From Microcaldota archaeon (GTDB lineage: Archaea; Micrarchaeota; Micrarchaeia; Micrarchaeales; CABMGC01), in assembly GCA_021797995.1 (NCBI GenBank), contig JAJZYR010000006.1, forward strand, positions 1 to 49,469: 49,469 bases of DNA, in the 5' to 3' direction. Below are positions 23,260 through 29,847 of this stretch, piece after piece (position 1 is the first letter of the stretch; the number at the start of each line of letters is the position of its first letter). A program made the position numbers and the translations under genes. The notes beneath the pieces were generated by a model. The model saw only the letters and a program-made list of their open reading frames with translations, was not told where the DNA came from and searched no databases.

Positions 23260-23407
23260 CGCTCGCACGCCGGTCCCGGCACATTCGCCCTGGAGGTCGT
23301 GGCTGTACAGATTTCATACCGTTATTGAGCACTATGAAACGGTAGTAAACACACTCCCTACTGCCTGTTTTCACAACTGACGCCGTAACTAACGATGACA
23401 GATGACG

Positions 23408-23490
23408 GGTCTGGCGGAGGGGAGATTTGAACACCCGACCTCTAGATCTCTTAGTCATCGCAAGAAGCTCATCACTCATCAAGCCGTGCG
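23408..23490 (-). repeat. tRNA(CAU) 3'-half fragment (intron + 3' exon); 83-bp direct repeat copy A
   Basis: 81/83 identical to 24643-24725; lacks the 5' exon. Confidence 0.9.
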
Positions 23491-23499
23491 GCCTTGCCA

Positions 23500-23688
23500 T
23501 CATATTATCATCGGTGCTATCGCATAAATGACTATGAATGTTATGGGAACGGACAAGAGGAATGAGAGAAGCACCTGTCTTGGCGTGTGCTTTTCGAGCT
23601 TAATTCTGGCCGCGCCCACAGCTCCTGCAAGAAAGAGCATGAAGAGCAGTCCGACAGGCCCATAGTCATAGAAGACGTTTTCGGTCAT
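23500..23688 (-). CDS. Small membrane protein
   Basis: MTENVFYDYGPVGLLFMLFLAGAVGAARIKLEKHTPRQVLLSFLLSVPITFIVIYAIAPMII; two hydrophobic segments. Confidence 0.55.
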   Translation of the reverse strand: MTENVFYDYGPVGLLFMLFLAGAVGAARIKLEKHTPRQVLLSFLLSVPITFIVIYAIAPMII

Positions 23689-23959
23689 GTTCGGGAAGGG
23701 CAAGACCGTGAAGATACAGCTGGCTTTCATAACGCTGGCTTATGCATTTCTCGTCGCGACGGTGCTGGAGGGCCTGTTAAATCCGCTCTTCCTGATACTG
23801 CTTGTGTCGTACGCGTTCGCCACTTACATTGCGATAATGGTGCACATAACAGAGGACAAGGACGTCCATGAGAGGATACACTTCAACTCGCAGCGCAACG
23901 GGCTTCTCGTGAGGCTCATCATAATAGTAATTCTCCTTGCGGTCTACTTCAACCTCTAG
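23687..23959 (+). CDS. Small membrane protein
   Basis: Three hydrophobic segments; the start may be further in (e.g. GTG at ~23708). Confidence 0.55.
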   Translation: MFGKGKTVKIQLAFITLAYAFLVATVLEGLLNPLFLILLVSYAFATYIAIMVHITEDKDVHERIHFNSQRNGLLVRLIIIVILLAVYFNL

Positions 23960-23970
23960 CACTGCGGTAG

Positions 23971-24585
23971 TCAAGGCGGGCTGAGCAGGTGGGCTGGTAT
24001 CGCCATAGCGCCGATGGCTACGGCGGAGAGGCTTGCTAAGAAGAGGGCGAGCCAGAAGATGGCAAGTGCCGTATCCCAGAGCCTTGAGTGGTTCTTATCG
24101 AACCCGGGAAGCCTGTCGATTATCATAGAGACAGGATAGGCGAATATTCCGGTGATCCCGTAGAGGAAGTACATTCCGAGAAGAGCGACAGGCAGCGCGG
24201 TGAGGCCTATATTGTAGCCCTCGAAGCCGTAGATTATGAGCATTATCCCGAAGAGCAGCGCGAGGAATCCCGCGTACTCGAGCTTTACGTTGTACTTTAT
24301 GGCAAGAGAGAAGGAAAGAAGGATTATGCCGAACGATACCAGCGGGTCGTAGAATAGTATGTTGTAACTTCCCGGAAGCGGCCATGTGAACTGGCCAAAG
24401 AGCCCGCTGATGAGCATGTACGCGCCTATTAGCGCGAGAGGGACGCTTGCGCCCTTTAGGTACTCCACGAAGTTCTTCTGCTTCCTCTTGTAGATGAAGT
24501 ATATCGAGGTGACGGTGTAGAGCAGAAGGAGTCCTCCGAAGCCTATCGAGAAGAGCGAGTAGGCGAGGTTGTCTATGAAGACCAT
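23971..24585 (-). CDS. Multi-pass membrane protein, DUF981-like
   Basis: MVFIDNLAYSLFSIGFGGLLLLY…; seven or so TM segments; TATA box TTATAAAT upstream. Confidence 0.6.
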   Translation of the reverse strand: MVFIDNLAYSLFSIGFGGLLLLYTVTSIYFIYKRKQKNFVEYLKGASVPLALIGAYMLISGLFGQFTWPLPGSYNILFYDPLVSFGIILLSFSLAIKYNVKLEYAGFLALLFGIMLIIYGFEGYNIGLTALPVALLGMYFLYGITGIFAYPVSMIIDRLPGFDKNHSRLWDTALAIFWLALFLASLSAVAIGAMAIPAHLLSPP

Positions 24586-24647
24586 GCTTGGCATGCCCAA
24601 CCAAGATTTATAAGCCTTGTGATGCTGCAAGATAGCATGGAGGGGTC

Positions 24648-24765
24648 TGGCGGAGGGGAGATTTGAACACCCGACCTCTAGATTTCTTAGTCATTGCAAG
24701 AAGCTCATCACTCATCAAGCCGTGCTTATGAGTCTAGCGCTCTAACCAGGCTGAGCTACTCCGCC
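24648..24765 (-). tRNA. tRNA with CAU anticodon (elongator Met or Ile2), about 43-nt anticodon-loop intron
   Basis: Acceptor GGCGGAG/CTCCGCC; D-arm GCTCAGCCTGGTTAGAGC; CTAGA-CTCATAA-[intron]-TCTAG; T-loop TTCAAAT; mature length 75 nt. Confidence 0.9.
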
Positions 24766-24828
24766 ACAGTTACCTTTTGCCGTAACGCCTATTTATTTGT
24801 ATCTGACGCAGCAGGCACTATCTGCCTT

Positions 24829-25707
24829 TTACAATACCGTTACTGCGAGCGCCCCGGACACCATGATCAGCAGTCCGACGATCTCTATGCGCCTGAGCCT
24901 CTCTCTGTAGAAGAGGAAGCCGAAGAACGAGGTTATCATGGGCGAGAGTGCCACGAGAGCGCCACCTATGGCAAGGACCGTGCTGCTTATCGTAATCCCG
25001 AAGACCGTATCTCCGGAGGCATCCGCAAATGCCGCTATTATCGTGAGGACAACAAGCGCAGCGATGGTCCTGCTGCCCTTTATCTTTGTGCCAAGACCCT
25101 TCAGGCTTGCGAGCGCCCTCCTGTTTGTGAGAAGATAGATTACAACTATTACCATGCCCGCCACTCTGGATATCAGGAGCGGAAAGGCATACGTTCCTGC
25201 CGAGATAACTGAGAAGGTCATGAGGATCCAGTAAAACGACCAGCAGATATTTGAGAGAAAGGCCGGAAGCAGGCCCCTGTTTATCTTGAACTTCTCTGTT
25301 GTTATCACCAAGGTGGCTCCTATGAAGATCACTATTATGCCAACGATCTCGACAGGCGTGATGTGCTCGCCAAAGACAAGAAGGCCTAGAATCACCAACG
25401 CGGCTGGCTGTATCTCCCCGAAGGCCGAGGTAGTGGCGAGTTTCTGGGTCTCCAGCGCCTTGTATGCCAGTATGAACCCGAGGCTCAGGAAGATCCCTGC
25501 AACAGATGCGACTACCACGCTCTCAAGAGTTAGCTGGTACTGGCCGACGAGCACCGTGGCGATCAGCATTGGGGCCAGGCCAAGCGTGACTATTATGAAA
25601 GGGACTATATAGATGCCCAGGCCGCGGGCTATCCGTTTTGATATGGTACCGGAGATGATCCAGAGCATCACCGAGATTATGGCAGCAGTAGTTGCTAGTA
25701 AGACCAT
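24829..25707 (-). CDS. EamA/DMT-family transporter
   Basis: Ten TM pattern, two EamA repeats (ILGLLVFGEHITPVEIVGIIVIFIGATLV; FFGFLFYRERLRRIEIVGLLIMVSGAL). Confidence 0.85.
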   Translation of the reverse strand: MVLLATTAAIISVMLWIISGTISKRIARGLGIYIVPFIIVTLGLAPMLIATVLVGQYQLTLESVVVASVAGIFLSLGFILAYKALETQKLATTSAFGEIQPAALVILGLLVFGEHITPVEIVGIIVIFIGATLVITTEKFKINRGLLPAFLSNICWSFYWILMTFSVISAGTYAFPLLISRVAGMVIVVIYLLTNRRALASLKGLGTKIKGSRTIAALVVLTIIAAFADASGDTVFGITISSTVLAIGGALVALSPMITSFFGFLFYRERLRRIEIVGLLIMVSGALAVTVL

Positions 25708-25808: not shown

Positions 25809-25881
25809 GGCCTTAGTGGTGTAACGGCTTGCATAGGGGACTGTGGATCCCTTGGATCGGGTTCGACTCCCGGCTTAGGCC
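25809..25881 (+). tRNA. tRNA-His (GTG)
   Basis: G-1; acceptor GCCTTAG/CTTAGGC; anticodon arm GGGGA-CTGTGGA-TCCCT; TCGGG-TTCGACT-CCCGG. Confidence 0.92.
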
Positions 25882-25882
25882 C

Positions 25883-26464
25883 TCATCTTTCAAAGACTTT
25901 TGCAATGGCGAGTTTTACTCTGTTGTTGGAGCGCCTTGCATATCTTGCAAGCTTCTTCTTATCGCATGCAAGCATTAAGCTCCGCAAGTCCTCGTCATTC
26001 AATCCAATTCTGTAATAGAAAAAGTCAACGAGGGTCTTCTCTGGATCTGAAACTGGAACAAACACGCCATTGTAATTCACCCACTCAATGCCAAAGAACA
26101 TCCTCTTTGATATGCGTCTTATGATTATCCTGCTGCCCATGGAGCTTCTGATTCCTGGGACTGCCTTTGTGGTTGTCACTATCACCAGGTTTGACATCTG
26201 GGTCCACAACTTTCGAATTGTAAGTGCACACTCTAACCCGTAATAGAAAGGGCTGAACGCGAAACCTATTATCGCATCGTTGCTAGAGAAGGTATACTTG
26301 CCCTTACCAACTTTCCTGAGCCCGTGTCTCTTAATCTGGTTGTGGACAAACACCTTTATGTATGCGTCAGAAGCGCCCATTCTAGTGAGAAAGCGTTTCG
26401 CATCATTGAATGAGAAGATCTGCACCTTCGAGAAATACTTCCTGAAGTCATTGTCATATATCAT
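25883..26464 (-). CDS. abiEi: AbiEi-like antitoxin (type IV TA)
   Basis: N-terminal wHTH-like SFNDAKRFLTRMGASDAYIKVFVHNQIKRHGLRKVGKGKYTF; VPVSDPEKTLVDFFYY. Confidence 0.75.
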   Translation of the reverse strand: MIYDNDFRKYFSKVQIFSFNDAKRFLTRMGASDAYIKVFVHNQIKRHGLRKVGKGKYTFSSNDAIIGFAFSPFYYGLECALTIRKLWTQMSNLVIVTTTKAVPGIRSSMGSRIIIRRISKRMFFGIEWVNYNGVFVPVSDPEKTLVDFFYYRIGLNDEDLRSLMLACDKKKLARYARRSNNRVKLAIAKVFER

Positions 26465-27098
26465 CCGACCATCTCTTAAGGTAGTCCAGCATCTTCTCGA
26501 AAGAAGTATCTTTCTGGCCTTTGTAAACCAGTGAACGCAGGACCTTCTCGTCTACAGGTTTCCTTATCTTTGCGAGAAACGGCTTGAGTTTTGATATTAC
26601 ATAGTAATCGTTCCCGCTTATGTAATTCGTAAGGTGGACGAGGTCATACATGTCCCTGATGTATCTCCTGCCCTCATAAGCCTCCATCTTCCTTACGAAA
26701 AGCTCAGATGGCTGAAGCGTTGAGAGGGTAATTGAGGAACCGTCTACCTTGGTGTACTGTGAGATTGCGCTCTCAAACTTGCCGATACCTGCCTCAAGAA
26801 GTACCTCTGTTCTGCCATCCGATATTCTAATGTGCAAGGGCAGTTCCTTATCCCTCCATGTCACTTTCATGCCATTCTTCTGAAGGTATTGGCCCAGTTT
26901 CTTTTCGAATGCTCTGTTTACATAGATATCTATGTCTTCAGAGAACCTGCCTCCTCCATAGCACCTCCATACAGCAGTGCCTCCATACAGGATCGCGTCT
27001 GGCTGTATGTAGTCGTATATCAACTCTATCAACACATCCTGCATCCTGGCAACATCGAGTCTCTTGCCAGTAAGGATTCCTTCTATAGGAATATCCAT
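26454..27098 (-). CDS. abiEii: AbiEii-like nucleotidyltransferase toxin
   Basis: YGGTAVWRCYGGGRFSEDIDIYV nucleotidyltransferase motif; overlaps the antitoxin. Confidence 0.85.
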   Translation of the reverse strand: MDIPIEGILTGKRLDVARMQDVLIELIYDYIQPDAILYGGTAVWRCYGGGRFSEDIDIYVNRAFEKKLGQYLQKNGMKVTWRDKELPLHIRISDGRTEVLLEAGIGKFESAISQYTKVDGSSITLSTLQPSELFVRKMEAYEGRRYIRDMYDLVHLTNYISGNDYYVISKLKPFLAKIRKPVDEKVLRSLVYKGQKDTSFEKMLDYLKRWSDDI

Positions 27099-27114
27099 AT
27101 TTGTTTAATGAACT

Positions 27115-27138
27115 AAAGTTATATAAATGTATAACTTT
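27115..27138. promoter_or_regulatory. Inverted repeat upstream of the abiE operon (putative operator overlapping the promoter)
   Basis: AAAGTTATA-taaatg-TATAACTTT, perfect 9-bp arms. Confidence 0.65.
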
Positions 27139-27166
27139 AAATGATCTTATATTCTCGGTACAGGCG

Positions 27167-27201
27167 CCTTGGATCGGGTTCGACTCCCGGCTTAGGCCCT
27201 C
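27167..27201 (+). repeat. tRNA-His 3'-end fragment (distal att-like repeat)
   Basis: CCTTGGATCGGGTTCGACTCCCGGCTTAGGCCCTC identical to 25850-25884. Confidence 0.95.
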
Positions 27202-27252: not shown

Positions 27253-29847
27253 TCAGAACAGATAAATTGCCATCTTTCTTATTATCTTCTTGATTACCAG
27301 ATACCACTTTGCCGAGTTCTTCTTTACGTCCTTAATCAGCGGCTTGTACCTTGCTTTCTCTTCGGGGGAGAGCTTCCCCTCCTTGACTATCTCCTGCTTC
27401 TTTCCGTCTACTATCTGGGTCTCGCGCTTGCTAACCACGTCCTTTCTTACCATTGCATACCATTCGTCCAGCGTGCCTCCGTGCTTCTTGATCATCCTGA
27501 TAAAGTCCTTCATCAGAATCTTTCTCTTCTTACCCGTCCTGTCCTCCTCGGCTGCGGGAATCAGCGCCGTCTTGTCGCTTATCTCAGCTATGTCGGCCTG
27601 GGAGAAGCCCATCGTCGCCCGCGCGAGCCTCCCGAAGTTTATGTGCCCGAGCGGCATCTTCCGCGTATTGTATATGAAAGCAGCCTTCCTCGTCTTGTAG
27701 TCTGGCGGTGGCAGGTATATCGACTCGCCGAACCTCCCGCTCCTCTTGAGCGCAGGATCCATGTCCCACGGCTGGTTAGTGGCTCCTATTATGAACAGCC
27801 CTTCGGGATTCTTCTCCACCCCGTCCATTTCCTGGAGGAACTGGTTTACAGCCATGCGCATGTAGCTCTGCCCTCCGTCTCCGCCTCCGTCGCCGCCGCC
27901 TCCTCCCCTCTTTACCCCGAGTGCATCCACCTCGTCGAAGAAGACCACGCACGGCGTCGCCTTCCTTGCCTGCTCAAAAATAGCATGCATGTTCTTCTCA
28001 GTATTCCCGGCATACATATCTACGATCTCATTGATTCTGGCTATCAGCACATTCGAGTTTGTCTCCCCTCCTATGGCGTTTACGAAATACGTATTATGCA
28101 CGAAGAAATCGTTTGCCACGAAGTTGTGTGTTTCATCGACCGTAAGGTCGTATACATACTCGGGCGCAGGCAGGGGTTCGATATTAACGATGCGCTCATG
28201 CGTAACCACATGCATACCTCCTTCGGTCCCGATGTCCATGATATACTTTTTCTTAAGACTTCCCGCCTTCCTGCCAAATATGCCTATCTTATCCGTAAAA
28301 GCAGCTATGTTCCGCTTATTTCTGACGGTGATATGCCATCCGTCTCTGATGTTGCCTGAGATGCATGAAAGCACGCCAAACCTGAGGAGCAGGTGCTGAA
28401 GGTCCTTTGCAAGCGATTCGGAAGGGGTAAAATAGGATATCTTCTTTGTTGTGCCCTTTCTGTTATATACCCTGCACCTGTCTCCTGTAAAGAGGCGGTT
28501 CAGGAAGAGCGACAGCAGGCGCTCTGGCAGCATATATATTTCCTTAGGCATGGCCATCCAATGGGGGTCTGCAAGCTCCAGTCCGTGCGCCTTTATAAAT
28601 GGCCGTATAGCGCTCTCCATGCCTTCCTGCGTTGATCCTGGGCCTGAGTGCTGTATCATTACAGTACCATCATCCGCATGTGAGCTTACCTGCATCGGCC
28701 TTCCAAAATGAAGCATTGCGGATTCAAAATCCTCCATGACGGCAGGATCGATGCTCTCAGAGGGCGGCAGCGTGTGCGCAGGCACGACATCCCCGATGAG
28801 ATATGCAAGGAGCTTAACCTCCCACTCCTCCATTTTAAGGCTGCCGAATACTGGAAGCGCATGCGGTACTCCTATCTCTTCGCCTTCACTAAGTTCCGAT
28901 GCGCTAACCCACCTGTCCATTACAAGCAGCGGATGTTCCGGAGTGCAATGGAGGATCCTGCCACTGCTTGTGGTTATGCGCAGGAGGGGCTTGCCATTAA
29001 GCTTCCAGTGGCCCGTAACCTTGCTTACTGCAAGGCTGTGATCCTGCGTCAGTGTCAGGATTGCGGGTTCCTTCTTCTCTACGACCTCTTTAATGGTCTC
29101 ATATCTTCCGTCTGGAAGGAGCACCCTTGTATCGGCTGAAACGCACTTTCCGCAGCCTGGCGGGCCGTAGAATAGGACGCCAAGGCCTAGTTTCTTGCCG
29201 TATGCCTTGAGGAGCTCAGGCTTTTTGATTGCCAGTATGATGTTCTCATACATGATCTGCTTCTCCTTTACCATGCCCACGATGTCCTTGAACGTGATGT
29301 TTGACTTGTGCCACTTGACCTGCTTTATCTGGCCTTCGACCATCTGCGTCTCGGTCGGTGAAGCCCCAGCAAGCGCCTCAGCCCCTCCTCCCCCTGCCGT
29401 ACCAGGCTTGTTCATCTTGCTCTTGAGCTGCTCGAGCCTTGCCTTTGCCTGCTCGTACTTCGGATTCTTCGCCAGCGACCTCTCGTACCACTCCTTAGCC
29501 CCCTGGAAGTCCTGCTGGTATTCGGCGACTATGCCCATCACATAAGGCGCGTCGTAGCTGTCCGGTTCTATGTCCATGACCGTCTCCGCGTCGCGCTCAG
29601 CCTCCTCATACTTGTTGACTATCGCATACGATAGCGCGCGGTTGAAGTAGGCGCTGGAATAGTTCGGGTCGATCTCTATGGCCTTCGAGTAGCAGTCTAT
29701 CGACTCATCGAACTTGTTCTCCTCGAAGGCTGCCCCGGCCTTCGTGTACCACTCCTTTGCCTTCGGGTCCGGCACATATGCGCTCTTCTTCTGGTCCTGG
29801 CCTCCGCTAGCATGCTTGGTACTTTCCTGGGCGTTCTTGTCGGCCAT
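27253..29847 (-). CDS. TPR-AAA+ ATPase containing an intein
   Basis: N-terminal TPRs; GPPGCGK//TYFVNAIGG; FFDEVDALG Walker B; GATNQPWDMDPALKRSGRF. Confidence 0.92.
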   Translation of the reverse strand: MADKNAQESTKHASGGQDQKKSAYVPDPKAKEWYTKAGAAFEENKFDESIDCYSKAIEIDPNYSSAYFNRALSYAIVNKYEEAERDAETVMDIEPDSYDAPYVMGIVAEYQQDFQGAKEWYERSLAKNPKYEQAKARLEQLKSKMNKPGTAGGGGAEALAGASPTETQMVEGQIKQVKWHKSNITFKDIVGMVKEKQIMYENIILAIKKPELLKAYGKKLGLGVLFYGPPGCGKCVSADTRVLLPDGRYETIKEVVEKKEPAILTLTQDHSLAVSKVTGHWKLNGKPLLRITTSSGRILHCTPEHPLLVMDRWVSASELSEGEEIGVPHALPVFGSLKMEEWEVKLLAYLIGDVVPAHTLPPSESIDPAVMEDFESAMLHFGRPMQVSSHADDGTVMIQHSGPGSTQEGMESAIRPFIKAHGLELADPHWMAMPKEIYMLPERLLSLFLNRLFTGDRCRVYNRKGTTKKISYFTPSESLAKDLQHLLLRFGVLSCISGNIRDGWHITVRNKRNIAAFTDKIGIFGRKAGSLKKKYIMDIGTEGGMHVVTHERIVNIEPLPAPEYVYDLTVDETHNFVANDFFVHNTYFVNAIGGETNSNVLIARINEIVDMYAGNTEKNMHAIFEQARKATPCVVFFDEVDALGVKRGGGGGDGGGDGGQSYMRMAVNQFLQEMDGVEKNPEGLFIIGATNQPWDMDPALKRSGRFGESIYLPPPDYKTRKAAFIYNTRKMPLGHINFGRLARATMGFSQADIAEISDKTALIPAAEEDRTGKKRKILMKDFIRMIKKHGGTLDEWYAMVRKDVVSKRETQIVDGKKQEIVKEGKLSPEEKARYKPLIKDVKKNSAKWYLVIKKIIRKMAIYLF
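28093..29145 (-). other. Intein (351 aa) inserted in the Walker A motif, with DOD-type endonuclease-like region
   Basis: C1 (CVSADTRVLLPDG), block B TPEHPLLV, LLAYLIGDV and LFTGDR, C-terminal VYDLTVDETHNFVANDFFVHN followed by Thr+1. Confidence 0.93.

Follow-up and report, generated by a model that had tools for sequence, protein, structure and literature searches.

The AbiE operon at tRNA-His

The window (the whole 49,469-nucleotide stretch of DNA analysed) comes from a Candidatus Micrarchaeota MAG of 945 kb, 94.6% complete, of a tiny acid-loving archaeon. This source genome is designated G000, other G numbers denote relatives, and L and C numbers denote loci and contigs, respectively. The feature under study begins at an intact tRNA-His (GTG) gene (25810-25882, plus strand), identified with ARAGORN, whose last 33 nt together with the 2 bp beyond it make up a 35-nt sequence (25850-25884, plus strand) that recurs at 27167-27201 on the same strand with zero mismatches. 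The sequence-only reading, which had described this perfect flanking repeat as 32 nt of tRNA plus 3 bp, was right about the identity of the copies and is corrected here in their composition, as the tRNA-His ends at 25882. The proximal copy is attL-like and the distal copy, an orphan tRNA-His 3' end, is attR-like.

Between the repeats lie only two genes, both on the minus strand and overlapping by 11 bp: an AbiEii-like nucleotidyltransferase toxin gene (214 aa, 26454-27098), which is the upstream gene of the operon, and an AbiEi-like antitoxin gene (193 aa, 25883-26464). The ORFs of the 1.3-kb unit include no integrase gene, so that ORF, Pfam and PADLOC analysis bears out the single integrase-less pair originally proposed. 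The antitoxin stop codon (TGA, 25883-25885) does overlap the end of the proximal repeat as had been noticed, and in the sister species G003 the antitoxin frame enters the tRNA, with its stop, a TAA, inside the tRNA 3' end. An operator had also been placed between the repeats. A near-palindrome with an A/T core, AAAGTTATATAAATGTATAACTTT, is indeed present upstream of the operon (27115-27138), with one change in G003 and similar sequences in L044-L046; it probably serves as the promoter/AbiEi operator. The presence of an AbiE operon flanked by repeats at this locus is thus confirmed.

The alternative that the distal copy is part of a second functional tRNA, raised together with the original observation, was ruled out as ARAGORN detects the tRNA-His only. 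A transposon or casposon was likewise ruled out by the absence of terminal inverted repeats, the repeat search having detected no sequence at one end of the unit that recurs inverted at the other. To the left lies an EamA transporter gene (24829-25707, minus strand; Pfam) that is syntenic in relatives, and to the right a TPR/AAA ATPase gene containing an intein (27253-29847, minus strand; Pfam), which adjoins tRNA-His at the empty sites of relatives. The intein carries a LAGLIDADG domain, and the versions of the ATPase in relatives are either ~850 aa or ~500 aa long, two length classes that suggest presence or absence of the intein.

The toxin and its partner

The toxin passes the curated cut-off of Pfam PF08843 (3.3e-12) and matches PADLOC AbiEii (8.9e-17), while its partner, the overlapping antitoxin gene, matches PADLOC AbiEi (1.1e-17) and has no match in Pfam. 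Candidatus Micrarchaeota MAGs are the closest named records carrying the toxin. Its structure model (pLDDT 93.9) resembles DUF1814-type nucleotidyltransferases, and JHP933, TglT/MenT3 and MenT1 are among 13 structural matches with E<0.001. The four catalytic positions reported for MenT toxins, T39, D41, K137 and D152 in MenT1 (PMC10435456), are kept in the homologues of the toxin: S53, K137 and D152 are invariant and D55 is present in at least 90% of 20 homologues, the correspondence with MenT1 being assigned by motif rather than by structural superposition. The toxin is a nucleotidyltransferase of the MenT/AbiEii type, whose probable activity is the blocking of tRNA 3' ends.

Comparison of the toxin between G000 and G003 gives a dN of 0.10-0.12 with a saturated dS (>1), indicating that it has been kept by selection; by this measure the operon is under purifying selection. 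Since MenT toxins modify tRNA ends we considered whether the tRNA target of the toxin is linked specifically to its host tRNA, a link that we reject because AbiE pairs lie at many tRNAs and at protein genes, and ATPases use the same sites.

The tRNA-His site in relatives

A search for empty tRNA-His sites had been suggested, and it was productive. In G009, G005 and G006 the EamA and TPR/AAA genes directly flank tRNA-His with no cargo between them, and in a fourth relative, G032, the TPR/AAA side is conserved and the opposite side is different. G003 carries the same operon at tRNA-His (81/75% aa identity, comparable to that of core genes) and has a second repeat of its own there (32 nt, 97%). 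Relatives with the same AbiE genes at this site and no second repeat had been named as counter-evidence: G003 has kept its repeat, and the AbiE pair that follows tRNA-His in G091 in the opposite orientation, with no second repeat visible within the 1.5 kb examined, is of another subfamily (40% aa).

Other cargo occupies the junction elsewhere. A NUDIX gene was found in G004, a glycosyl-hydrolase-like gene in G001, a GNAT gene in G011 and, by sequence, also in G067:C37, and an ORF with a perfect 22-bp repeat in G067:C10. In addition there is a 200-aa nucleotidyltransferase-like gene in G065 and G067:C44 and a P-type-ATPase-like gene in G068, both named from translation only. The single MAG G067 has three contigs (L211, L212 and L213) in which tRNA-His is followed by a different cargo each time, possibly representing strain variants of one locus.

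That the site is vacant in some relatives and holds other cargo in others implies turnover at the tRNA-His locus. The two G000 repeat copies share a T (GGATCGGG, compared with GGACCGGG in relatives) that occurs in no relative examined, which indicates that the copies were formed or homogenised recently. Their identity despite a dS >1 in the toxin likewise indicates recent homogenisation or re-formation.

Repeat-bounded units at other tRNAs

Repeats within 10 kb of 60 tRNAs were surveyed in the whole of G000 joined to the initial 400 kb of G065. This census returned 14 downstream direct repeats, of which around 4 are weak (14-17 nt, or short of the tRNA 3' end), with 0 upstream and 0 inverted. 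A chance origin of the repeats is excluded, both because the three mirror controls gave none and because comparable flanking repeats occur in only 5/600 random 1.25-kb segments. Integrase-less units of 1.2-1.7 kb were found in G000 at His (AbiE), Met (DUF981), Leu-TAA (AbiE of another subfamily) and Asn (AAA_14/DUF4143 ATPase), along with a second Ala unit (AAA_14-like), and in G065 at Val (AAA_14-like), Leu (AbiE) and Arg (AbiE); a larger integrase-less unit of 4.8 kb lies at Ala-CGC. For eight of the 15 AbiE or AAA_14 genes of the two genomes, the distance to a preceding tRNA 3' end is 106 bp or less; of random 1.3-kb segments drawn for comparison, 1.2-1.8% have such an end within 300 bp.

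The Met unit (23407-24766) is the second integrase-less unit in the window. Its target is an intron-bearing tRNA-Met (CAT) gene (24647-24766, minus strand; ARAGORN with introns), and its proximal repeat (24643-24725, minus strand; 83 nt, 97.6%) is matched by a distal copy found by repeat search (23407-23489, minus strand), 1.15 kb from the tRNA. The cargo is a DUF981 membrane protein gene (23971-24630, minus strand; Pfam 1.5e-48) with small membrane ORFs beside it.

Besides AbiE pairs, a second cargo recurs in such tRNA-bounded mini-units, namely AAA_14/DUF4143 ATPases (L101:15573-16892; L224:8706-9959), and in one case the stop codon abuts tRNA-Val. A tandem array was also seen at tRNA-Ala(CGC) (L069:2825-11857; G000 C21:115824-124857), where AAA_14, MFS and AbiE genes are followed by an 83-nt copy, an AAA_14 gene, a weaker 36-nt copy and a further AAA_14 gene.

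AbiE pairs across the order

We extended the analysis to 71 distinct AbiE pairs of the order, 69 with both flanks. At a threshold of E<1e-3, direct repeats flank 24 of the 69, the rate in random segments being the 5/600 given above. A tRNA 3' end faces 20 pairs, and 12 have both the facing tRNA 3' end and the repeat, so the suggested search for further AbiE pairs between tRNA 3' repeats found them at many tRNAs. The sites include His, Leu, Ser, Ala, Arg and Cys, with repeats of 67 bp (100%) at Leu-TAG, 65 bp (97%) at Ser-GCT, 40-59 bp (~90%) at Ala-CGC and Ala-TGC and 44 bp (93%) at an intron-bearing Cys.

Protein-gene ends are used as well. One unit lies at the 3' end of asd (identified by Pfam) with a repeat of 105 bp (90%), two units stand in tandem at the end of an SDR-like gene, and others lie at the ends of an ERCC4-type nuclease-like gene and of a gene with a terminal TRASH/YHS-like motif, the last three genes being named from their translations. 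Some AbiE repeats occur in other contexts, namely gene 5' ends, a LamG repeat and beside an IS110-like gene, and therefore a flanking repeat is not always an att scar. In G029:C65 an AbiE pair (L047:605-2273) lies between 90-bp direct repeats and adjoins an IS110-like transposase gene rather than a tRNA.

Integrases of the order

Of 30 tyrosine integrase loci in the order, 23 contain a tRNA. At tRNA-His itself integrases are present in G082, G113 and G116, their ORFs starting 19-65 nt after the tRNA in two cross-matched searches, and those of G082 and G116 were checked against Pfam. Integrase-bearing elements bounded by tRNA repeats of this kind include one of 1.7 kb at tRNA-Glu. In an array of G015 (L192:8686-11811), tRNA-Leu is followed first by a VapBC-like pair and a partial att copy, then by an AbiE pair and a further att copy, and last by an integrase gene. 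An AbiE unit together with a tRNA-His integrase was not found among the loci of the order that were examined. Neither the tRNA-His att core nor the toxin led to a carrier element in scans of IMG/VR viral contigs. A 3.9-kb integrase element at tRNA-Asn in G065 (L235:60-4054) encodes an apparent PCNA-like sliding clamp, named from translation only.

The integrase searches gave a single match in G000, a truncated ORF at another tRNA (C10; L070:190-896) that begins inside tRNA-Leu(CAG), and no intact integrase. Split or suicidal integrases have been described for archaea (PMC8371274), and the truncated ORF within tRNA-Leu resembles the int fragment of such a split integrase. A 3.9-kb element at tRNA-Leu(TAG) on C30 of G000 (L138:3055-7075) carries a mercuric-reductase-like flavoprotein gene and a thioredoxin-like gene, with an integrase-like N-terminal remnant after the tRNA.

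Origin of the unit

That the unit was inserted by recombination at the 3' end of the tRNA is close to certain. The tRNA is left intact, empty sites exist in relatives, similar units lie at many sites and the order encodes integrases at tRNA-His. The reading that we favour, at a probability of roughly 55%, is that the AbiE operon is a mobile cargo cassette inserted at tRNA-His by an integrase acting in trans. A small circle of DNA would have carried the operon and a single attP copy of the 3' end of tRNA-His, and a tRNA-His-specific tyrosine integrase supplied in trans by another mobile element would have recombined this attP with the tRNA gene. The tRNA would be rebuilt in the process and the displaced original end would remain as the distal repeat. 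As the toxin would make loss of the unit costly, the unit could persist without an integrase of its own. The sequence-only reading had left the choice between a minimal toxin-antitoxin (TA) unit moved in trans and a remnant stabilised by its TA pair. Its core, site-specific insertion at tRNA-His, is strongly supported by the empty sites, the G003 repeat and the tRNA-His integrases. Movement in trans is what we infer from how tightly and repeatedly such units are packaged, from their tandem arrays and from the integrases at the same tRNA. We prefer it to the remnant reading because units just as tight, holding unrelated AbiE subfamilies or an ATPase, recur at many sites and also in tandem beside an integrase.

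Decay of the kind seen in bacterial CIMEs is the strongest competitor, although we consider it unlikely: of a larger integrase-bearing element at tRNA-His, only the TA pair would have survived between the att sites. G000 does contain decaying integrases (the truncated ORF on C10 and the N-terminal piece at Leu-TAG on C30), larger integrase-less units exist, such as that of 4.8 kb at Ala-CGC, and CIMEs of 1.2-13 kb have been described as decay products (PMC7563491). However, the independent units share tight boundaries, several stop codons lying 1-6 nt from the tRNA, and integrase remnants were not seen in the tight units. Two cargo families packaged exactly at many sites and in tandem would rarely be expected from random deletion.

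Alternatively, host recombination with no integrase at all could have integrated small circles or fragments, each bringing a TA pair and the 3' end of a tRNA or gene, at the homologous end in the chromosome. Such a route is improbable, although it would suit a source genome lacking an intact integrase, repeats of uneven identity and length (15-105 bp) that are also present at protein-gene ends (asd, SDR, ERCC4-type nuclease), and the T shared by both G000 copies, which fits gene conversion between them. Against this, every repeat of the census is direct and lies 3' of its tRNA, the integrase-bearing elements of the clade have the same repeat anatomy, and archaeal att sites may reach the D-loop and occur in protein genes (PMC8371274). 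A single entry into the ancestor of G000 and G003, followed by retention of a now immobile operon for a function of its own such as defence, seems very improbable to us: the core-like AbiE identity of the two genomes could reflect an old, sedentary operon, and purifying selection agrees with this, but the repeat copies of G000 are identical despite a dS >1 and the empty or differently filled sites of relatives speak for turnover.

Relation to known systems and implications

Neither islands flanked by att sites and lacking an integrase nor integrase-mediated insertion at archaeal tRNAs is new (PMC7563491; PMC8371274, PMC6563490). CIMEs are bounded by attL and attR, have no recombination or transfer genes, span 1.2-13 kb and often stand in tandem with integrase elements (PMC7563491). 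The tRNA-His unit resembles them and other att-flanked, integrase-less tRNA islands in having att sites on both sides and no recombination, integrase or transfer genes of its own. It differs in that such units are filled by one TA pair or one ATPase and lie at many different tRNAs, in archaea, and that no ICE/IME remnants were seen in the unit, nor any ICE/IME relatives or conjugation genes in the loci examined. Archaeal elements with tyrosine integrases (thaumarchaeal cryptic, pT26-2 and SSV types) also enter tRNA 3' ends, including those of intron-bearing tRNAs, and restore the tRNA (PMC6563490, PMC8371274), as the units here do. Those elements, however, carry an integrase and measure at least 2.6 kb in the thaumarchaeal survey, whereas the present units are 1.2-1.7 kb long, and the tRNA-His unit, having no integrase of its own, falls outside that class. 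Integron cassettes, including those of archaeal integrons (PMC9668308), share with these units a single-gene or TA cargo, arrays at one site and, on the favoured reading, an integrase encoded by a separate gene, but the repeat here is a tRNA or gene 3' end rather than attC, and no intI was identified. The cargo itself belongs with AbiE and MenAT systems in its AbiEii nucleotidyltransferase, which has the catalytic residues and the fold of MenT toxins, and its AbiEi-like partner. Classical AbiE loci have the order abiEi-abiEii; here the toxin gene precedes the antitoxin gene and the host is an archaeon. We found no description of minimal TA or ATPase units in Micrarchaeota in the one literature collection searched, and this absence is not proof of novelty.

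More broadly, and tentatively, the 3' ends of tRNAs and of some genes in Micrarchaeota may act as insertion platforms at which units of a single TA pair or AAA_14/DUF4143 ATPase, each with one tRNA-end att site, are captured and stacked in integron-like fashion by tRNA-specific integrases working in trans; this is a possibility that we hold well short of even odds. If the proposed movement is correct, it would account for the way in which tiny archaea with genomes of 0.8-1 Mb acquire and exchange TA and ATPase genes without an intact integrase of their own, and for the position of many AbiE pairs next to tRNA genes. It would warn annotators that an orphan tRNA end in such a genome is the sign of an insert. 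It would also provide an archaeal model of TA genes moving as single cassettes at predictable sites.
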